From contig NZ_VWSF01000027.1 of NCBI RefSeq assembly GCF_008629685.1, forward strand, positions 1-64,000: a DNA stretch of 64,000 nt. The letters are read 5' to 3'. Shown piece by piece: positions 21,890 through 33,871 of the stretch. The notes under the pieces were generated by a model that ran no database searches, was not told the origin of the DNA, and worked only from the letters and a program-made list of their open reading frames with translations. The position numbers and the translations under genes are program-made. The stretch is from Adhaeribacter rhizoryzae. GTDB lineage: Bacteria > Bacteroidota > Bacteroidia > Cytophagales > Hymenobacteraceae. Positions within the stretch are counted from its first letter, which is position 1. Every line of letters starts with the position of its first letter.

Positions 21890-24322
21890 ATGAAGTGGCT
21901 CCGGGCGATTCTTTCCTTAATTATTCTTTTAGCTTTAGTTTATGCATTAAATACCAAGTTTGGCGATGTGCCGCCCGTAGGAAAGTTTTTGAGCCCATTT
22001 ACCGGTTTCTGGCAGCAAGCCGAAAGCAAAGACCTGGCCGCTGAAGAAGAACTAACCTTACCGGGCATACAGGATAATGTTACCATCCTGTTCGATAAAA
22101 GCCGTATTCCGCACGTTTTCGCCCAAAACGACCAGGACCTTTATTTTGCCCAAGGCTACTTAACGGCACGCGACCGGTTGTGGCAAATGGAGTTTCAGAC
22201 GCACGCGGCGGCCGGCCGTATTTCCGAAATTATTGGCAGCAAAGCCATCGATTTTGATAGGTTTCAGCGGCGCATGGGCATGGTGTACGGGGCGCAGCAA
22301 TCGCTGGCCGGTATGATGGCCGAGCCTACTACCCGTACCATGCTCCAAAGTTATACGGCCGGCGTAAACGCCTATATTGCCCAACTATCGCCCAAAACTT
22401 ACCCCCTGGAATATAAATTATTAGATTACGCCCCTGAACCCTGGACGCCGCTGAAATGTGCCCTGCTGCTGAAAGTAATGGCTTACGATTTGGCAGGCCG
22501 CTCCAACGATTTGCGCATGATCAATATTCTGCGAAAATATGGCCCGGAAGTAGTTAAAGATTTATTCCCGAATTACCCGTTTCGCGAAGATCCTATTGTG
22601 CCGGTGGGTACCGAACTCGATTTTAAGCCGCTAAATATTCCGGCTGCGCCTGAAAATTTTATGGCAGAATTTTCGAACAAAGTACTGGAAAAAGAGCCGC
22701 CCGCCGAATTAGGCAGTAACAACTGGGCCGTAGCCGGCAACAAAACCACTACGGGTTTCCCCATGCTGGCCAACGACCCGCATTTGCAGCTTAATTTGCC
22801 GTCTATCTGGTACCAAGTGCAACTGGTAGCACCGGGCGTAAATGTGTACGGCGTTTCTATTCCGGGTGCGCCGGGTATTATTATTGGCTTTAATAAAGAG
22901 GTAAGCTGGGGCGTAACCAACGTAGATGCCGATGTGATGGATTGGTACCAGATAAAATTTAAAGATGCCACCAAAAAAGAATATTTCCACGACAACCAAT
23001 GGAAACCGGTGCGGCAGGTAATAGAAAAAATAAAAATAAGAGGCGGTGCTATCCGCAACGATACTGTTTATTATACCCACCACGGCCCGGTGGTATACGA
23101 CCGCCCGGAAGAAGTTTTTAACAAGCAAACGCCGGTAAGCCACGCCATGCGCTGGATTGCCCACGATAAATCGAACGAGCTGCGTACGCTTTACCTGCTT
23201 AATCGGGCGCATAATTACCAGGATTTTCAAGAGGCCTTGCAATACTGGGTAGCCCCGGCCCAAAACTTTGTTTACGCCGATGTGCACCAGGATATTGCTC
23301 TGTGGCCCAATGGTAAATTTCCGCTGAAATGGAAAACCCAGGGCAAATTTACCCTGGATGGCAGTAATAAAACCCACGATTGGCAAGGCTGGATTCCGGC
23401 CGCACAAAATCCGCACGTGAAAAATCCGGCGCGGGGTTTTGTGTCTTCGGCCAACCAGTTTTCGGCTGGCCCGGATTACCCGTATTATATAAATTGGGAG
23501 TTTGCCCCCGCCGATCGGGGTATCCGGATAAACCAACGGCTTGCGGCCATGCAAAAAATATCGCCGGACAGCATGCGCGGCCTGCAAAACGATAACTTTA
23601 ATATTAACGCCCAAACTGTATTGCCCACGCTGTTGGCTCAGTTAGATAAAAATAAATTAAACCAAACCCAGCAACAAGCATTTCTGGAACTTTCAAAATG
23701 GCAATATTATAACCACCCAGACCAACTCAGCCCGACAATATTTGAGGTGTGGTGGCAAGCTTTAAGCAAAGCTATCTGGGACGATGAGTTTGGGAGCAAA
23801 ACCGGGTTAGAAATGCGTTACCCTAACCGCGACCGCACCTGGCATTTAGTTTTGCAGGAACCCCAGGCCAAATGGTACGATAATATTCATACGCCCGCCA
23901 AAGAAACGCTGCCCATGCTGGCCCAACAAACTTTTGTTGCTACTATTGATTCGCTGGCAAAACAGCACGGCGCATTAGGTAAAAAGTGGCAGTGGGCCAA
24001 CCACAAAGCTACTTCGGTGCAGCATTTGGCTAAATTGCCGGGCTTTGGCCACGAAAATATATTTGTTGGCGGTGGTCGCAATATTGTAAATGCCACTTCG
24101 GAGCGAAACGGGCCATCGTGGCGCATGGTAGTGGCCTTGGGGCCGCAGGTAAAAGGCTACGGCATTTACCCCGGCGGCCAGTCGGGCAACCCCGGCAGCT
24201 TTTACTACGACAACCTGCTGGAAACCTGGCGACAAGGCAAACTTAATGAATTGGTGTATTTGCAATCTCCAACTGATGGTAATGCTCAGTTCGTATCTAA
24301 ATTAAGCTTGCGGAAAAAGTAG
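21890..24322 (+). CDS. Penicillin acylase family (Ntn-hydrolase) protein
   Basis: This 810-residue Ntn-hydrolase precursor has a hydrophobic N-terminus (residues 5-20) for export or anchoring. The alpha chain includes IPHVFAQNDQDLYFAQGYLTARDRLWQMEF. The autocleavage site is ELG-SNNWAVAG, making Ser276 the N-terminal nucleophile of the beta chain. Downstream, NDPHLQLNLPSIWYQV, PGAPGIIIGFN and WGVTNVDADVMDWYQ match the beta chain, with a C-terminal region GQSGNPGSFYYDN that is very typical. The family hydrolyses beta-lactam side chains, acyl-homoserine lactones or other amides; substrate here is unknown. The following small membrane protein gene is 66 bases away. Confidence 0.9.
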   Translation: MKWLRAILSLIILLALVYALNTKFGDVPPVGKFLSPFTGFWQQAESKDLAAEEELTLPGIQDNVTILFDKSRIPHVFAQNDQDLYFAQGYLTARDRLWQMEFQTHAAAGRISEIIGSKAIDFDRFQRRMGMVYGAQQSLAGMMAEPTTRTMLQSYTAGVNAYIAQLSPKTYPLEYKLLDYAPEPWTPLKCALLLKVMAYDLAGRSNDLRMINILRKYGPEVVKDLFPNYPFREDPIVPVGTELDFKPLNIPAAPENFMAEFSNKVLEKEPPAELGSNNWAVAGNKTTTGFPMLANDPHLQLNLPSIWYQVQLVAPGVNVYGVSIPGAPGIIIGFNKEVSWGVTNVDADVMDWYQIKFKDATKKEYFHDNQWKPVRQVIEKIKIRGGAIRNDTVYYTHHGPVVYDRPEEVFNKQTPVSHAMRWIAHDKSNELRTLYLLNRAHNYQDFQEALQYWVAPAQNFVYADVHQDIALWPNGKFPLKWKTQGKFTLDGSNKTHDWQGWIPAAQNPHVKNPARGFVSSANQFSAGPDYPYYINWEFAPADRGIRINQRLAAMQKISPDSMRGLQNDNFNINAQTVLPTLLAQLDKNKLNQTQQQAFLELSKWQYYNHPDQLSPTIFEVWWQALSKAIWDDEFGSKTGLEMRYPNRDRTWHLVLQEPQAKWYDNIHTPAKETLPMLAQQTFVATIDSLAKQHGALGKKWQWANHKATSVQHLAKLPGFGHENIFVGGGRNIVNATSERNGPSWRMVVALGPQVKGYGIYPGGQSGNPGSFYYDNLLETWRQGKLNELVYLQSPTDGNAQFVSKLSLRKK

Positions 24323-24388
24323 CGCAGCTGGTTTTAGAATTATTAATTTATAATAAATAGATCTTAACTGTTTAGCCAAACTAAATTT

Positions 24389-24730
24389 ATGCGTTTATTT
24401 TTATTGCTGTTAGTTTTAAGTTTTGCCTTGCAGTGGGTTTTACCCTGGTGGATTTTGGCCATAGTATCTTTTGTTCTGGCTTTTTGGTTGGCTAAAAAAG
24501 GTAGCGGCGCCTTTTGGGCAGGCTTTGGTGCTATATTTTTGGGCTGGCTGGGTTTAAGCTTATTTTTTCATTTGCGCAACGATGGCATCTTAACCAGCCG
24601 GGTTGCTACACTTTTTACGTTGCCGCAACCCTGGTTGCTCTTGTTGGTTACCGCGGTGGTGGGAGGCTTGGTTGGTGGTTTAGCGGCTTTAACCGGCTAT
24701 TTTTTCCGTCGGGCTTGGGTTCAAAAGTAA
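24389..24730 (+). CDS. Small membrane protein of unknown function
   Basis: This 113-residue protein is almost entirely hydrophobic, with three to four TM segments (residues 2-32, 37-60, 75-108) and a short basic tail RRAWVQK. It contains no enzyme motif that I recognise. Such proteins often follow a penicillin acylase gene in Cytophagales, but this is recollection and not visible here. It may be co-transcribed with the acylase, since only 66 bases separate them. Confidence 0.6.
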   Translation: MRLFLLLLVLSFALQWVLPWWILAIVSFVLAFWLAKKGSGAFWAGFGAIFLGWLGLSLFFHLRNDGILTSRVATLFTLPQPWLLLLVTAVVGGLVGGLAALTGYFFRRAWVQK

Positions 24731-25930
24731 TATTCATACGGTTGCAAAAGCGCTACCTACCCGATTGGCTGAACGCATTCCATTCAGGTTCTCTTGTTCT
24801 TAAATCAGCAATAATATAATTGTTTTTGTAGCTGTTAACCCCAACAGCCTGCTTGTTTGGGCGCTAATTTAATCCAACGGATTAAAGCAAACTTGTGATG
24901 CTCCTGTTTTTACAGTTAGCATTAGCGCTTCTGGCGTCTAATATATTCCAAAATATCGTTGCTCTTACCAGATGTTGCCATAGGTTATTATGGCTTTATA
25001 ATCAGCTAGCGCCTAAAAAATTGGGTATTTATTACTTTGCCACAATCTTGTATAGCTAAGGGTTTTTACAAGTATCATCAGAATGCTATTTGTAAATTGT
25101 TGATGGATATTTGTAGTATTCCAATAAGTATTTGCTTGAATATTTTAAATGCAATGAAAATTATAGAAATTTAATATTTTAAATAAATTTAAATAACCTG
25201 GCAATACAAGTTTAAAATAGGGCAGTTTTAACTAAAAAGGCTTTTTGTTATGGTTTAATATTATGCCAATTTATTCAGATAAAATTTAATGTATAAGCTT
25301 AAGTGTTGAGAATATTTAATCATAATGCAGTTATAATAAATTATAATCACCAAAACTTGTTCCTGGAGATGAGGAGAAAAATTTAAAAATTTTAAAAACA
25401 GCCTTCACATTAAATATATTTTACAATTGGGTTGATATAAGCAAATTGATTTAAAATATTTCAGGTTTAGGTTATTAATATTAAATATTATTTAATCCTG
25501 AATATGATATAATTCCTGTTTTAAGGATGAATTATTTTTTTATATACAATATAACTTTAATTTTGATATTGTAAACTGAACTATCTAACAAACAAACAAG
25601 CTATTATGACTTCTAAAGCAAACTTTCGTTCCCCCTATCTTTTATAGTACCTGTCCCTACCGTTTAGTTTGGGAAGAATCAGCTTGAAATTAACTGATGC
25701 TTCAACGTTGGTGGGTTAACCGGCATTTGACAATATTGTTGAACCAGCCTGGGTAAGGTTAAACAAATATTGTAACTGGTTGTTGATTAACCAATTGTGT
25801 GGTTGAGTGTTAAACTAAAACAATGCTGCCTATTTTCAAACTACTATCCTGAATAAGCAAAAGAAAGGCGTAAGCTTTGCCTCTTGTCTATTTTATTTAA
25901 ACAAACCCTTACAAACAACAAACAAACCTT
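24731..25930. other. AT-rich 1.2-kb region upstream of susC
   Basis: I see no supported gene over these 1,200 bases. The part from 25040 to 25590 is strongly A/T-rich with many ATTTAA/TTTAAAT runs. At 25606 an ATG opens a 13-codon frame ending in TAG, preceded by AACAAACAAACAAGC. The same kind of leader (ACAAACAAACCTT) precedes the susC ATG at 25931, so 25606 may be a leader peptide or the remains of an older susC start. Confidence 0.5.
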
Positions 25931-25999
25931 ATGACAAAATTTTTATTCATGAAATGCATGCTGCTGCTTTTCTTAATAAGCGAAGTAAGCGCGCAATAG
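25931..25999 (+). pseudogene. Signal-peptide segment of susC ending in an in-frame TAG
   Basis: ATG at 25931 opens 22 codons for a canonical SusC signal peptide (MTKFLFMKCMLLLFLISEVS, then AQ) followed by TAG at 25997-25999. The frame continues without a break as RPISGTVTDG, which is the normal start of the mature SusC carboxypeptidase-like domain. A single C-to-T change (CAG to TAG) would explain it, giving AQQRPISGTV in the ancestor. Confidence 0.85.
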
Positions 26000-26044
26000 C
26001 GACCAATATCGGGTACTGTAACCGATGGCGCTTCCAGACAAGGC

Positions 26045-29000
26045 TTGCCTGGTGTAACAGTTCTGGTAAAAGGTACTTCTACCGGTACCAGCACCGATGT
26101 GGATGGTAATTATACCATTAATGTACCTGCTTCAGGTGTTTTAAGCTTCAGTTTTATTGGTTACACTACCGTAGAGCGGGCTATTGGCAATGCTACTACC
26201 ATTAATGTAACCTTAAACGTAGATGCCGCCCAGTTAAACGAAGTAGTTATTACGGGTTATTCTACGCAAACCCAACAATCTTTTACGGGTTCGGCCAAAG
26301 TAGTTAGCGGCGAAAACTTAGAAAGAAAGAATGTTTCTAACGTTTCGCAGGCTTTAGCTGGTGAAGTAGCCGGGGTGCGGGTTATTAACACCAGCGGTCA
26401 GCCTGGTTCTACCGGCACCATCCGTATCCGGGGTTTAGGTTCGGTAAACGGTAACCGCGATCCTTTATATGTAGTTGATGGCGTGCCTTTTACCGGTAAC
26501 CTTAACGCCATTAATCCCGCCGATATTGAGTCGGCTACGGTACTGAAAGATGCGGCTGCTACGGCTATTTACGGTTCCAGAGGCGCCAACGGGGTAGTGG
26601 TAATTACTACTAAAAGCGGCAAAGGTAAAGCTTCTTACATTGAGGCTGATGCCAGCACGGGTACCAACATGGCTTTGCTGCCCCGCTACAGCACCATTAA
26701 GTCGCCGGAGCAATATATTGGCTTAGGCTGGGAGGCTTTGTACAACCAAGGTGTGGCCTTAAATAATGCCAACCCTACCAACTTCGCCAACACCCGGTTA
26801 TTCTCTACTTCTGGTATCCGGACCAATTATAACATGTGGAATGCCACAGCTGCCGAATTAATTGATCCGGCTACCCGCACTGTAAGACCCGGCGTTACCC
26901 GGAAATACACTCCGGAAAACTGGGAAGATTTTGCTTTCCAAAACGCGGCCCGCAACGAGGTAAACGTTAAGTTTGGCGGTTCTACCGGTAAAACAAATTA
27001 TTATTCTTCTTTCGGTTTCTTAGACGACCAAGGCTATATTATTAACTCTGATTTCCAACGTTTATCGGCCCGTTTAAATGTTACCCAGGAAATTAAAAAA
27101 TGGTTAACCGGCGGGGTAAACTTTGGTTATGCCAGAACCGAAAGCAATAATAACGGCCAGTCAGAAGATTCAGGTAGTATTTTCTGGTTTGCCGATAACA
27201 TGCCGCCCATTTATCCTTTGTTTATGCGCGATGGCGAAGGTAAATTACTCACCGACCCAATATTTGGCGGTAACCGCTTTGATTACGGTGGTGGTTCTAA
27301 TGCTACTTCCCGTGGTTTTGGTGGTTTAACCAATGCTATTTCGGATGCTACTTACGATGTAAACCGGAATAACCGGAACGAACTGAACGGTAGCGCCAAC
27401 TTAAACTTTAATATTCTGGAAGGCTTAACCTTTGAGAACCGCTTGGGTTTGCAGTATTACAACGATAAATATGTAAACCGGGGTAATAAATATTACGGCA
27501 GTTCTGCTTCTCAGAATGGTAGCCTTTATACCGAAAGAGAAGAGTTAACGTCTTTTAACTTATTAAATTTATTAAGATACAATAAAACTTTTGGCCAACA
27601 CGGTATAGAAGCTTTAGCCGCGCACGAAGCCAGCAACTGGCGCCGGAGCCTTTTAATTGCTTCGGGTTATAACCTGGTAGATCCGGATTTGTTAGACTTG
27701 AGCAATGCGGTGGTATTTAACCCATCTAATTCTTACACCAATGCTTATTCTTTAGAAAGTTACTTCGCGCAGGTTAACTACGATTTCTCTAAAAAATACT
27801 TCTTATCCGGTACTATCCGGCGAGATGGTTCTTCCCGGTTCCGCGAAGATAAATGGGGTACGTTTGGTTCAATAGGTGCTGCCTGGTTAATATCCAGCGA
27901 AGATTTTATGAGCAATCTGCCTATTCTAAATAATTTAAAATTAAAGGCTAGCTACGGCTTAATCGGCGATCAGGCGGGGGTAGGTTACTATCCGGGGTAC
28001 GATTTATTTAACGTTGATAACTTAAACGATGCGCCGGCTTTCTCTTTCTACACCAAAGGTAACCCCAATTTAACCTGGGAAACTTCTAAGATGTTCCAGA
28101 CCGGAATTGAATTTAGTTTAGGCGAATTTTTAGACGGTTCATTGGATTATTATATCAAAAACACCGACAACTTAATATTCGAAAGAAGAGTTGGGCCTTC
28201 TATTGGTTATGCCTTATTGCTGGTAAACGACGGTAAATTAAGAAACCGGGGCTTTGAATTTGATTTAACCGGCCATGTGCTGAAAACCGAAGATTACCGT
28301 TTAGACCTGAATGTAAACGGCGAAATTTTTGATAACGAGATTACCGAAATGCCTTTAGACCCGGTTACGGGCAAGCAAAAACCCATAGACGTGCAAGCGC
28401 CTTACGGTTGGTCGGTAGGTCATTCTATTTTTGATTTTTACATGCGCGAATATGCCGGTGTTGATAAAGTAGATGGCAGAGCTATGTGGAATGTAGTATA
28501 CAACGACGCAAATAATAATAATACAGTAGATGCCGGCGAAGGTATCGCTGACTTAACCAATTATTTAGCTGGTAATCCGGATGTGCAGGAATCTGACCTG
28601 AAGACCACTACTACCAAAACCTACACCAGTGCCACTCAGAAATACATTGGCAAATCGGCTATTCCTAAAATAAGAGGCGCCTTTAACTTAGCTGGCGGTT
28701 ACAAAGGTTTTGATTTAAGTGCGCAGTTTATTTATAGCCTGGGTGGTTATGCTTACGATTACCGCTATGCTTCTTTAATGGGCAACGGTTTAATTGGTAG
28801 CAACAACTGGCACACCGATATTTTAAACAGATGGCAGAGCGCCGATGCACCAGGCGATGGCGTAGTTCCGCGTCTTTCTAACAACGCCGATTTAAACGCA
28901 GCCGGTGCTTCTACCCGCTTCCTGACCAAAGCCAATTACCTGGGCCTGAACAATGTGCGCTTAAGCTACACCGTTCCGGCTAACTTAACCGAAAAAGTTG

Positions 29001-29176
29001 GTTTAGGTGGTCTTACCGTATGGGTATCCGGCGATAATTTATGGATTAATACTGCTCGTAAAGGCTTTAACCCTGCTATTTCGGAGGCTGGTAGCTCTAA
29101 CCGCGATAATAACCAAAGCAGATACCAGTACAATCCTTTATCTACCTTAACCGGTGGTTTACGCGTTAAATTTTAA
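26045..29176 (+). CDS. SusC/RagA family TonB-linked outer membrane transporter (body; N-terminus cut off by TAG)
   Basis: SusC proteins are TonB-dependent barrels that import oligosaccharides or peptides with a SusD lipoprotein lid. The frame runs from the TAG at 25999 to 29176 (about 1,058 codons after the stop); the TTG at 26045 is the first possible start after it. Visible parts are the carboxypeptidase-like domain (GVTVLVKGTSTGTSTD), the TonB-box/plug region (LNEVVITGYSTQ, then IRIRGLGSVNG), the ALKDAAATAIYGSRG-type plug signature (VLKDAAATAIYGSRG), and a long beta-barrel ending LRVKF. Apart from the TAG it is intact, so the lesion is probably recent, or the gene is read through. Without its signal peptide the product would not be exported. 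Confidence 0.85.
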   Translation: MPGVTVLVKGTSTGTSTDVDGNYTINVPASGVLSFSFIGYTTVERAIGNATTINVTLNVDAAQLNEVVITGYSTQTQQSFTGSAKVVSGENLERKNVSNVSQALAGEVAGVRVINTSGQPGSTGTIRIRGLGSVNGNRDPLYVVDGVPFTGNLNAINPADIESATVLKDAAATAIYGSRGANGVVVITTKSGKGKASYIEADASTGTNMALLPRYSTIKSPEQYIGLGWEALYNQGVALNNANPTNFANTRLFSTSGIRTNYNMWNATAAELIDPATRTVRPGVTRKYTPENWEDFAFQNAARNEVNVKFGGSTGKTNYYSSFGFLDDQGYIINSDFQRLSARLNVTQEIKKWLTGGVNFGYARTESNNNGQSEDSGSIFWFADNMPPIYPLFMRDGEGKLLTDPIFGGNRFDYGGGSNATSRGFGGLTNAISDATYDVNRNNRNELNGSANLNFNILEGLTFENRLGLQYYNDKYVNRGNKYYGSSASQNGSLYTEREELTSFNLLNLLRYNKTFGQHGIEALAAHEASNWRRSLLIASGYNLVDPDLLDLSNAVVFNPSNSYTNAYSLESYFAQVNYDFSKKYFLSGTIRRDGSSRFREDKWGTFGSIGAAWLISSEDFMSNLPILNNLKLKASYGLIGDQAGVGYYPGYDLFNVDNLNDAPAFSFYTKGNPNLTWETSKMFQTGIEFSLGEFLDGSLDYYIKNTDNLIFERRVGPSIGYALLLVNDGKLRNRGFEFDLTGHVLKTEDYRLDLNVNGEIFDNEITEMPLDPVTGKQKPIDVQAPYGWSVGHSIFDFYMREYAGVDKVDGRAMWNVVYNDANNNNTVDAGEGIADLTNYLAGNPDVQESDLKTTTTKTYTSATQKYIGKSAIPKIRGAFNLAGGYKGFDLSAQFIYSLGGYAYDYRYASLMGNGLIGSNNWHTDILNRWQSADAPGDGVVPRLSNNADLNAAGASTRFLTKANYLGLNNVRLSYTVPANLTEKVGLGGLTVWVSGDNLWINTARKGFNPAISEAGSSNRDNNQSRYQYNPLSTLTGGLRVKF

Positions 29177-29186
29177 TTAAACAGAA

Positions 29187-30749
29187 ATGAAGAAAAATAT
29201 ATATTTAATGGGTGCAGTTGCTCTTTCGTTTTTGGTGAGCAGTTGTAAAGATGATTTTCTGGATGAAAAACCAACCCAACGGTTATCGCCGGAACAAATT
29301 GCCAAAGCAGCGGAAAAAGACCCTACTTTGTTAAATGGCAGTATTGCGGGTTTATACGCTACCATGTATAATACCGAAACTGGCGGTACCACTAACCACG
29401 ACGATTTCGGCCAAAAAGGCTACGATATTTTCAGCGATTTTCTGGTATCGGATGTGGCTTTGGCCGGTACAAATTACGGCTGGTATACCACCGTGGTACG
29501 GTATCAGGCTACTAAAGATTTTACGGGTAACCCGGCTTACCAACCGTGGCGGTATTATTACCGGCTTATTTTGGGCGCCAATACCGTAATAGATGCCTTG
29601 GGTGGTTCAGATGCCGAGCAAACCTTACCGCAAAACCGTTATACCATGGGCCAGGCCAAAGCAGTTCGGGCTTACGCTTACTTTTACCTGGCGCAGTTTT
29701 ATGCAACCGGTTATGGTAATGGCACCGAAAAAATATTGCCTATCTACAAAGATACCAATTCGCCGAACCAGCCAAAAAGCACTACCGCTGAGGTTTATGA
29801 TTTTATCGTGTCGGATTTAACCCAGGCCATCGAATATTTAGACGGCTTTAACCGGGCTTCTAAAGACCAGATAAATCAGCAGGTAGCAAAAGGCTTATTG
29901 GTTTACGCTTTATCGGCAAGGGGTACAACCGCCGATTTAAATCAGGTAGTTAAGCTTACCGATGAAGTTATTGCCAATGGCGGTTTCCGGTTGTTAGAGA
30001 AAAACGAAGTAGTTGCCCAGATTGATCCGGCTACCGGCCGTGTGTTAAATCCGGAATCGGGCTTTAACAATGTAGCTAGCCCAAGCTGGATGTGGGGCGT
30101 AGACCTTACTTTAGCCAATAACCTCGACCTGGTATCGTGGTGGGGACAAATGGATATTTTTACTTACAGCTATGCCTGGGCCGGTGACCCTAAAACCATC
30201 GACAAAGGCTTGTATGATGCCATTCGGGCCGACGATGTTAGAAAAAATCAGTTTGATCCGGAAGATGGTGGTGTTGAGCAATTCTACGAAGAAGATGGCT
30301 ACGCCGAAGGCGACATGGACTTAATGCCGGTAAATAAATTCTTTGATCCGGCTCGCGTAATTGGTGGTCAGCGTAATGTGGTTACCGATTACGTGTACAT
30401 GCGCTTAGAAGAAATGTATTTATTAAACGCCGAAGCCAAAGCCCGGTTAGGCCAGGAAGGTGCCGCCAAAGACATTCTGAAACAACTGTTAGCCAAAAGG
30501 CTAACCAACGTTAATTATGTAGATGCTTTGGGCGGACAAGCCTTGCTAGATGAAATTTACCTGCAAACCCGCATAGAATTATGGGGAGAAGGCAAAGCTT
30601 ATTTAGCCATGAAACGCCTGAAGAAAACCGTTACCCGCGGTTCTAACCATTTGTTCGAAGCCGGGAAATCGTTTACGTATGACGCCGACGAATTAACTTT
30701 CCCAATTCCGCAGGCCGAAGTATTAAACAATCCAGTGCTGAACCAATAA
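29187..30749 (+). CDS. SusD/RagB family nutrient-binding outer membrane lipoprotein
   Basis: This 520-residue lipoprotein pairs with SusC as the surface lid that binds substrate. The signal peptide ends in the lipobox VSSC with Cys20. The family N-terminus KDDFLDEKPTQRLSPEQ is present, as are the TPR-like helices (GQAKAVRAYAYFYLAQFYATGYG) and the C-terminal RIELWGEGKAYLAMKRLKK segment. It starts 10 bases after the susC stop. An S9 peptidase follows, which suggests peptides as substrate, but this is inference. A strong terminator lies at 30806-30841. Confidence 0.95.
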   Translation: MKKNIYLMGAVALSFLVSSCKDDFLDEKPTQRLSPEQIAKAAEKDPTLLNGSIAGLYATMYNTETGGTTNHDDFGQKGYDIFSDFLVSDVALAGTNYGWYTTVVRYQATKDFTGNPAYQPWRYYYRLILGANTVIDALGGSDAEQTLPQNRYTMGQAKAVRAYAYFYLAQFYATGYGNGTEKILPIYKDTNSPNQPKSTTAEVYDFIVSDLTQAIEYLDGFNRASKDQINQQVAKGLLVYALSARGTTADLNQVVKLTDEVIANGGFRLLEKNEVVAQIDPATGRVLNPESGFNNVASPSWMWGVDLTLANNLDLVSWWGQMDIFTYSYAWAGDPKTIDKGLYDAIRADDVRKNQFDPEDGGVEQFYEEDGYAEGDMDLMPVNKFFDPARVIGGQRNVVTDYVYMRLEEMYLLNAEAKARLGQEGAAKDILKQLLAKRLTNVNYVDALGGQALLDEIYLQTRIELWGEGKAYLAMKRLKKTVTRGSNHLFEAGKSFTYDADELTFPIPQAEVLNNPVLNQ

Positions 30750-30805
30750 GTAGTTTTTAGATAGCTAATAAGCTATCCGGAAATTATAATTTAACTAATA
30801 GTATT

Positions 30806-30841
30806 ACAAGGGCTGTTCGCAAGAGCAGCCCTTGTTTTTAT
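30806..30841 (+). terminator. Intrinsic terminator of the susCD operon
   Basis: ACAAGGGCTG and CAGCCCTTGT form a 10-bp stem around TTCGCAAGAG, followed by TTTTTA, 57 bases past the susD stop. Confidence 0.9.
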
Positions 30842-30974
30842 TATCAGCAACCGCTATAGCGCGGATTTACTTCCGTGCATTTCTGAATATAAATAATGGC
30901 GGGTAAACAAGAGCAGCCATGCTGTTTTTATCAGAATTTTATTAAAACTTGTACCGAATTTATTTCCTCTTGCT

Positions 30975-33374
30975 ATGCTTCTTTCCAAACGGTTCAATAT
31001 TCTAATATTTACAGTTCTATCGGGTTTATTCTCCCAAACAGGTTTTTGTCAGGGAAACGCTACGGCCACCCTAACCATAGACCAAATAATGCAGGGAACG
31101 GCTTTTACCGGCACTTCGCCCAGCAATATTTCTTGGTCGGAAAATGGCCGGCAAATATATTTCCAGTGGAACCCCGATAACAACCGCCGCGATTCTTTAT
31201 ATACCGTTAATGCCGATGGCAAAAATATCCGGAAAGTAACGGCCTCGGCAAGCCAGTTATTGCCAACTAGTAACGGGGCTTATAACCGCAACTACACCCA
31301 AAAAGTGTATGAAAAAAACGGCGATATTTATTTGCTGGATGTAAAATCAGGTAAAATAGAGCAGCTTACCAATACCGTAGAGCGAGAATATTTGCCGGAC
31401 TTTACTTTCGACCAAAAGAAAATAGCTTTCCTGCAAAATAACAATTTGTTTTACTTGCACTTGGGTTCCGGCCAGTTGGTGCAGCTAACCGATTTTAGAA
31501 AAGGCCCCAAACCTACTGACCCGGAAGCGCCCAAAAGCGAACAGGAAAAATGGCTACGCAGCCAGCAACCCGCATTATTAAATATTGTAAAACTTCGCGA
31601 AGCTGATAAAGCCACAGCAAAAGCCCAGGTTAAAGCCAATACCCGAAATCGGCCCTTAACAATTTACCTCGGCGATAAAGCTGTAGATAATATAGTACTG
31701 AGCCCCGACGAACAATATATTACTTACCGTTTGTCTGCTTCGGTGGCAGCTAATACCCAAATAGCGCAGGTGCCAAATTTTGTAACGGGTTCAGGCTTTA
31801 CCCAAAATATTGCTACGCGCCCCAAAGTAGGTCATCCCCAGCCGGCTTACGAAATGGCTGTTTACAACCGCCACCAGGATACAACTTACCAAGTTCCTTT
31901 CACAGATTTGCCGGGTATAAACGAAGTACCAGCTTTCCGGAAAGATTATGCAACTAAAAAAGAAAATACGCCAAAGCCTCGCGCGATAATAGCTTACGGG
32001 CCGGTTTGGTCCGATAATGGAAAAAATGCCTTGCTGGTAGCGCGCGCCCAGGATAACAAAGACCGCTGGCTGCTTAGTTTTGAGCCAACTACCCGTACTA
32101 CCAAATTATTATACCGGCAACACGACGAGGCCTGGATTAATGGCCCTGGTATTGGCTACGGAGCCGGCGAAATTGGCTGGTTACCCGATAATGAGCACAT
32201 CTGGTTTCAATCGGAAGAAACCGGTTATTCGCACTTGTATACCGTAAATATTAAAACTGGCGCCAAAAAAGCTTTAACCCACGGCAACTACGAAATATCA
32301 AACCTGCAGCTATCCCGTAATAAAAAGTACTGGTATTTTAATGCAAACAAAAACCACCCCGGCGATGTTCAATTTTACCGGTTGCCCCTACAGGGCGGCG
32401 AAGCCATTGCTTTAACGTCTTTGCCCGGCAGCCACGAGGTAACTTTATCGCCGGACGAGAAAACGCTGGCCATCCGGTATTCTTACAGCAACAAGCCCTG
32501 GGAATTGTATTTGCAGGATAATCGGCCAGGGGCTAAACCCAAGCAAGTTACCAATTCGTTACCCCCCGCTTTTAAGGCCTATAACTGGCGCGAACCCGAA
32601 GTATTATCTTTTAAAGCCGCCGATGGCGTTAATATTTTTGCCCGATTATACCGCCCGGCCCAAACCGTTGCCAAAGGCCCAGCGGTAATTTTTGTACACG
32701 GAGCCGGTTATCTGCAAAACGCGCATAAATGGTGGAGCCAATATTTTCGGGAGTACATGTTTCATAATTTTTTGGTTGACCAAGGTTATACCGTACTGGA
32801 TATTGATTACCGGGGCAGCTCAGGTTATGGCCGCGACGTACGTACCGGCATTTACCGCCACATGGGCGGCAAAGACCTCTCTGACCACGTAGACGGCGCT
32901 AAATTACTGGTAGATAAGTACGGCGTGGATGCCAAACGCATTGGTATTTATGGCGGCTCGTACGGTGGCTTTATTACCTTAATGGCCATGTTTACGCAGC
33001 CTGATGTTTTTGCAGCGGGGGCGGCCTTGCGATCCGTTACCGATTGGGCGCATTATAACCACGGCTATACTGCTAATATTTTAAATGAGCCTTTTACCGA
33101 TAGTCTCGCTTATGTAAAGAGTTCGCCGATATATTTTGCTGAAGGCTTAAAAGGTGCCTTACTCATGTGCCACGGCATGGTAGATACCAACGTGCATTTT
33201 CAGGATATTGTGCGGTTGTCGCAGCGGTTAATTGAGCTTAAAAAAGAAAACTGGGAATTAGCCGTTTACCCCGTAGAAGACCATGCTTTTACCGAACCGA
33301 GCAGTTGGGCCGACGAGTACAAACGCATTTTTAAACTCTTTGAAACAAACTTAAAACCTGCTGTTAAGCCTTAA
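30975..33374 (+). CDS. Secreted S9 family (prolyl oligopeptidase / dipeptidyl peptidase IV-like) serine peptidase
   Basis: This 799-residue exported peptidase has a signal peptide ending FCQ at about residue 26. Residues 30-540 form a beta-propeller with repeated YTVNADGKNIRKVT and YLLDVKSGKIEQLT blades. Residues 545-799 are an alpha/beta hydrolase domain: FVHGAGYLQNAHKWW, DIDYRGSSGYGRD, nucleophile Ser662 in GGSYGG, Asp737 in GMVDTNVHF and His770 in EDHAF. It cleaves short peptides from their N-terminal side, likely after proline. Its neighbours upstream are SusCD, from which it is separated by a terminator, and a GNAT gene starts 14 bases downstream. Confidence 0.9.
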   Translation: MLLSKRFNILIFTVLSGLFSQTGFCQGNATATLTIDQIMQGTAFTGTSPSNISWSENGRQIYFQWNPDNNRRDSLYTVNADGKNIRKVTASASQLLPTSNGAYNRNYTQKVYEKNGDIYLLDVKSGKIEQLTNTVEREYLPDFTFDQKKIAFLQNNNLFYLHLGSGQLVQLTDFRKGPKPTDPEAPKSEQEKWLRSQQPALLNIVKLREADKATAKAQVKANTRNRPLTIYLGDKAVDNIVLSPDEQYITYRLSASVAANTQIAQVPNFVTGSGFTQNIATRPKVGHPQPAYEMAVYNRHQDTTYQVPFTDLPGINEVPAFRKDYATKKENTPKPRAIIAYGPVWSDNGKNALLVARAQDNKDRWLLSFEPTTRTTKLLYRQHDEAWINGPGIGYGAGEIGWLPDNEHIWFQSEETGYSHLYTVNIKTGAKKALTHGNYEISNLQLSRNKKYWYFNANKNHPGDVQFYRLPLQGGEAIALTSLPGSHEVTLSPDEKTLAIRYSYSNKPWELYLQDNRPGAKPKQVTNSLPPAFKAYNWREPEVLSFKAADGVNIFARLYRPAQTVAKGPAVIFVHGAGYLQNAHKWWSQYFREYMFHNFLVDQGYTVLDIDYRGSSGYGRDVRTGIYRHMGGKDLSDHVDGAKLLVDKYGVDAKRIGIYGGSYGGFITLMAMFTQPDVFAAGAALRSVTDWAHYNHGYTANILNEPFTDSLAYVKSSPIYFAEGLKGALLMCHGMVDTNVHFQDIVRLSQRLIELKKENWELAVYPVEDHAFTEPSSWADEYKRIFKLFETNLKPAVKP

Positions 33375-33388
33375 ACCAGTTTCTATAA

Positions 33389-33871
33389 ATGTCAGCAGAA
33401 TATACCAAGGGCGATTTTATTATTTCCATTGATTCGGCTAAACTGCAGTTAGCGGTTATTTACGAATATTTAGCGAAAGAATCTTACTGGGCCGAAAATA
33501 TTCCTCTGGAAGTGGTTACGCGGGCAATCGCCAACTCTTTAAATTTTGGCTTGTACACGGCATCAGGTGAGCAAATAGGTTTTGCCCGGATTATTACCGA
33601 TTATGCCACGTTTGCTTATTTAGCAGATGTTTTTGTGTTGCCGGAATACCTGGGGCAAGGCTTATCTAAATGGTTAATGGAATGCATTATGGCGTACCCC
33701 GATTTACAAAACTTACGGCGCTTTATGCTCATGACCCGGGATGCCCATACTCTTTACACTCGTTTTGGCTTTACGCCGCTAAAAGATGCCGCTAATTGTC
33801 TGGAAATAGCACGGCCCGGCCTTTACAAACCAGAAACTGATACAGTAGAATTAGTTAGAGATCCAGCCTAA
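33389..33871 (+). CDS. GNAT N-acetyltransferase
   Basis: This 160-residue acetyltransferase has the motif-A segment YLADVFVLPEYLGQGLSKWLME, with the Q-x-x-G loop that binds acetyl-CoA, followed by RRFMLMTRDAHTLYTRFGF (motif B). It begins 14 bases after the S9 peptidase stop codon and is likely in the same transcript. The substrate is unknown. A terminator follows at 33914-33951. Confidence 0.85.
   Translation: MSAEYTKGDFIISIDSAKLQLAVIYEYLAKESYWAENIPLEVVTRAIANSLNFGLYTASGEQIGFARIITDYATFAYLADVFVLPEYLGQGLSKWLMECIMAYPDLQNLRRFMLMTRDAHTLYTRFGFTPLKDAANCLEIARPGLYKPETDTVELVRDPA

Follow-up and report, generated by a model that had tools for sequence, protein, structure and literature searches.

Does a susC gene that carries a stop codon directly behind its signal peptide still give rise to a transporter, and how did the stop come to be there? 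The question is raised by a susC–susD pair in the window, by which we mean the whole stretch of 64,000 nucleotides of Adhaeribacter rhizoryzae DNA analysed here. The susC frame opens with an ATG at 25931 on the forward strand, meets a TAG as codon 23 (25997-25999), as the initial annotation had claimed, and then continues through 1058 uninterrupted codons of mature protein to a TAA at 29174-29176. The features of the locus are the following.

21890-24322, forward strand: penicillin-amidase family protein, upstream of susC, with a relative in the Adhaeribacter MAG G007
25931-25996, forward strand: conserved susC signal peptide of 22 codons, 19/22 residues the same as in the A. aerolatus orthologue, dN/dS 0.070
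25997-25999, forward strand: in-frame TAG, codon 23, found in neither of 2 congeneric orthologues and in none of 78 readable relatives
25997-26041, forward strand: 45-base stretch with an excess of divergence from the congeners and the TAG at its 5' edge, 13/45 bases being particular to the window
26000-29176, forward strand: frame of the mature SusC with CarbopepD_reg_2, Plug and barrel, uninterrupted up to the TAA, dN/dS 0.055 against A. aerolatus
29187-30749, forward strand: susD, intact, with PF14322 and PF07980, dN/dS 0.067
30806-30835, forward strand: intrinsic-terminator-like hairpin after susD, 13 pairs followed by a T-run, from a consensus scan only
30975-33374, forward strand: S9 prolyl-oligopeptidase/DPP IV-like peptidase, a neighbour kept in A. 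aerolatus

Both sides of the stop could be assigned by homology. With 19 of their 22 residues identical to the A. aerolatus orthologue, codons 1-22 are homologous coding sequence and no chance frame, in keeping with the signal peptide that had been proposed ahead of the TAG. Behind it, Pfam recognises CarbopepD_reg_2, Plug and a TonB barrel, and the gene scores 720 bits against the SusC/RagA family model TIGR04056 (cut-off 368.25) over profile positions 2-981 of 981, which bears out the mature SusC claimed there. SusD domains lie immediately 3' of susC, as befits a member of the SusC/RagA family. The accompanying claim of an intact susD and terminator also stood, since susD is unbroken and the consensus scan places a terminator-like hairpin behind them. 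In its order of signal peptide, CarbopepD_reg_2 extension, plug and barrel, followed by SusD, the pair resembles the SusCD and RagAB TonB-dependent "pedal bin" transporters of Bacteroidota, among which RagA, in a passage of PMC11817032, has a signal peptide of 20 residues followed by CarbopepD_reg_2. It differs from them in the stop after the signal peptide and in its peptidase and amidase neighbours.

Absence of the stop from relatives and paralogues

The closest orthologue of susC, from Adhaeribacter aerolatus NBRC 106133, is 86% identical, matches over all 3246 bases and has the same length, and the TAG is the single lesion of the window gene, with neither a frameshift nor a second stop. 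In both congeneric orthologues, that of A. aerolatus and that of the MAG, the codon aligned to the TAG is a serine codon, and in wider relatives the residue at this position varies (S, T, E, D, N, Q, V, G and others). The CAG ancestor that had been suggested for the TAG is thus not the origin that the two congeners favour. The search returned 80 relatives, of which 2 were partial and left out, and the remaining 78, A. aerolatus included, could be followed in frame from the sequence ahead of the junction into the mature part; all 78 pass the signal-mature junction without a stop. This alignment with the nearest relatives had been proposed at the outset, and it leaves the TAG private to the window among the relatives examined. 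Absence of the in-frame stop from orthologues is what is expected of a recent nonsense pseudogene, whereas the conservation expected of a readthrough site was seen at 0/2 congeneric orthologues and 0/78 readable loci (A. aerolatus being counted in both). A virus-borne relative of susC was searched for and none was found; among plasmids, 27 records gave partial matches, none of them covering 80% of the query.

The genome itself holds at least 50 SusC genes above the TIGR04056 cut-off (56 scored of 100 candidates), and the 49 other full-length ones all lack a stop at the signal-mature junction. Together with the 78 relatives, these 49 paralogues rule out that the stop is a general feature of SusC genes.

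Another full-length SusC gene of the genome, L068 (C7:96022-99135, minus strand), is interrupted by a single TGA inside its frame; the TGA falls at residue 209 of the match to the profile, a position at which the paralogue L067 keeps a sense codon.

Counting this TGA and the TAG of susC, 2 of the 50 SusC genes carry a nonsense codon. In the seven other genomes of the genus, the SusC genes among the matches listed (38 candidates scored per genome) are free of internal stops, in a count that leaves out the signal peptide region. The SusD-family matches of the genome, 46 in number and 45 of them over the cut-off, are all without a stop inside the match.

Selection on the gene and the probable fate of its product

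If the stop had long silenced the gene, the codons behind it should have begun to decay. With A. aerolatus as reference, the signal peptide (codons 1-22) has a dN/dS of 0.070, codons 24-40 one of 0.125 and the whole frame behind the stop one of 0.055, compared with 0.067 to 0.148 for five neighbouring genes, although dS of about 0.8 is close to saturation and makes any bound on the age a rough one. With a dN/dS of 0.055 and no second lesion, an old pseudogene can be discarded. A three-way comparison assigned 37 residue changes (the stop counting as one) and 107 synonymous changes to the window, and 32 and 135 to A. aerolatus; relaxation on the side of the window is not significant (Fisher P 0.17), and even less so when the residue changes of codons 23-36 are removed and the synonymous count is kept whole (P 0.48). 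Under our assumption of three residue changes per synonymous change in neutral drift, the neutral share of the window's branch could come to 4%, and at most to about 8%. Given the low dN/dS after the stop and the lack of significant relaxation, the stop is either of very recent date, or a sequencing error, or else tolerated and harmless to the product.

The reading that we consider likely is that the TAG is a private nonsense mutation of recent date, in a SusC gene with no other damage, and that it stops the export of SusC. This reading is supported by the private TAG, by the rest of the gene, which shows no decay, and by the TGA in another SusC gene. Two observations weigh against it: the intact signals of selection fit equally well a protein that is still being made, and a single point mutation does not explain the excess of changes beside the TAG. 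The mutation may also have arisen in the laboratory strain. Of the three options initially offered for the TAG, the recent nonsense mutation is thus the one favoured by a private stop in an undecayed gene, while programmed readthrough gained no positive support and error is weighed below.

According to the favoured reading, translation would halt at the TAG and leave only a signal peptide of 22 residues. The first in-frame start candidates past the TAG are a TTG at 26045 and a GTG at 26099, and since both lie 3' of the signal peptide, a downstream start is ruled out as a rescue of export. A restart, at TTG 26045 for instance, would yield a SusC that lacks the signal peptide and remains cytoplasmic, so the outer membrane would be without this SusC and the SusD lid would be left without its barrel. 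Such a loss is probably tolerated, because 49 other full-length SusC genes were found in the genome. For annotation, it would take one of fifty predicted transporters away from the genome, and automatic gene prediction may set the start of susC at TTG 26045, as a mechanical list of open reading frames does.

A precedent for single stops in selected genes is provided by Belinky et al. 2021 (PMC7918605), who in the portions of their article consulted report that in-frame stops are common in bacterial genes under selection (dN/dS <1), and mostly short-lived, and who infer frequent readthrough. The susC TAG is alike in being the single in-frame stop of a gene that is otherwise under selection, but their set required the stop in at least two species, whereas the TAG is known from one genome. 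That such stops are, in these portions, common and short-lived fits the account of a recent nonsense mutation. Searches for a SusC with a premature stop, readthrough or a nonsense mutation gave nothing relevant among the matches listed (passages of PMC11501099 describe such mutations for an anti-sigma gene and not for susC), and those for Adhaeribacter genomes gave no report on this genome among the matches listed.

Error or an exchanged patch as possible sources of the TAG

It is rather unlikely that base-calling or assembly introduced the TAG into this draft genome (53 contigs) and that the strain's real gene is intact. Such an error would account for a stop that is private in a gene whose remainder is undecayed, and it could also account for nonsense codons in 2/50 SusC genes here when the listed matches of the seven other genus genomes have none. 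The lesion is, however, a substitution and no indel, and stands amid several other private substitutions; the SusD-family matches of the genome, moreover, are uninterrupted in 46/46 cases.

The private substitutions beside the TAG have to be considered in their own right. From the TAG onward, 13/45 bases are specific to the window, against 168/3201 elsewhere in the gene (Fisher P 5e-7), and identity to A. aerolatus is 64% in 25997-26041 against 86% over the whole gene. Within susC, private changes are densest over the 45 bases that begin at the TAG, where the count of 13 exceeds the 99.9% point of 12 from 5000 uniform shuffles, which are a rough control under selection for a stretch that was picked after inspection. 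For the changes private to A. aerolatus and to the MAG, the corresponding maxima are 9 and 10. When weighted by the residue variability in 15 hand-picked relatives, the stretch shows 5 changes where 0.6 were expected (P 4e-4).

One could speculate that the TAG was brought in by a short foreign or paralogous patch, through gene conversion or short-patch recombination, instead of by a single mutation. Only the origin of the TAG is at issue here, and the idea is compatible, indeed overlapping, with a nonsense mutation as read above. The cluster of 13 changes and the lower counts in the two congeners speak in its favour, but the choice of the stretch was post hoc, over 12 bases the highest count in the window is 6 and remains under its 99.9% point of 7, and the tree that sets the MAG outside window and A. 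aerolatus, and so assigns the changes to the branch of the window, is supported at 0.61. A donor for gene conversion was not found either: with as many as 3 mismatches allowed in 30 bases, the stretch matches only itself in its own genome, none of the matches listed in the 49 paralogues exceeds 17 bases, and the longest exact foreign match listed in 204 family genomes is 21 bases (at most 4 candidates scored per genome). We regard the patch as distinctly improbable. Given the excess of changes at the TAG, the stop may have come in on a short exchanged patch, or else next to a burst of change confined to this spot.

Possible decoding of the TAG and the setting of the locus

Readthrough would have some ribosomes decode the TAG and produce full-length SusC at a low, perhaps regulated, level, in which case the dosage of SusC would be set by a stop codon. 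Purifying selection both before and after the TAG is consistent with it, as is the wide occurrence of stops in bacterial genes with dN/dS <1 that, in the consulted portions of PMC7918605, are read as frequent readthrough; the same portions, however, have most such stops living only briefly, on a time scale typical of polymorphism, and for the most part with no functional recoding behind them. The TAG is, moreover, unconserved in the 2 congeners and the 78 readable loci. At least 36 tRNA-family matches were found (150 scored of 376 candidates), and all 36 carry sense anticodons, so that there is no CTA anticodon, and hence no suppressor tRNA, among them. TAG serves as the terminator of 5 of 32 open reading frames that we picked out of the 57 listed for the window. 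Sense anticodons only in these 36 matches, together with the use of TAG as a terminator, rule out an alternative genetic code, and the code looks standard. The 100 bases 3' of the TAG fold barely better than shuffled sequence (z -0.76) and give no indication of a stimulating fold, the same stretch in A. aerolatus, which has no stop, reaching z -1.79; an Rfam scan of 24200-26100 gave no match at E up to 1. Neither a suppressor tRNA nor a stimulating RNA element was thus detected, by tests that weak or novel elements would slip past. Taken with the lack of conservation, this makes readthrough very unlikely. A combination of the two last alternatives, in which the TAG is a leaky translational valve that holds SusC low and arrived at the signal-mature junction as part of a short exchanged patch, is hardly credible.

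Between the penicillin-amidase gene and susC lie 1.6 kb (24323-25930) without an open reading frame of at least 120 aa and without an Rfam match. The MAG has a gap of 1.4 kb at the equivalent place upstream of susC, with little sequence similarity in the aligned part, and ahead of it a penicillin-amidase relative of equal length (810 aa) that is 82% identical. Over 21890-33871 of the window, the SusCD pair is grouped with the penicillin amidase, the S9 peptidase and a GNAT acetyltransferase. The neighbouring peptidase and amidase genes hint, as a guess at the substrate from context, at uptake of peptide, not glycan, by this SusCD pair.
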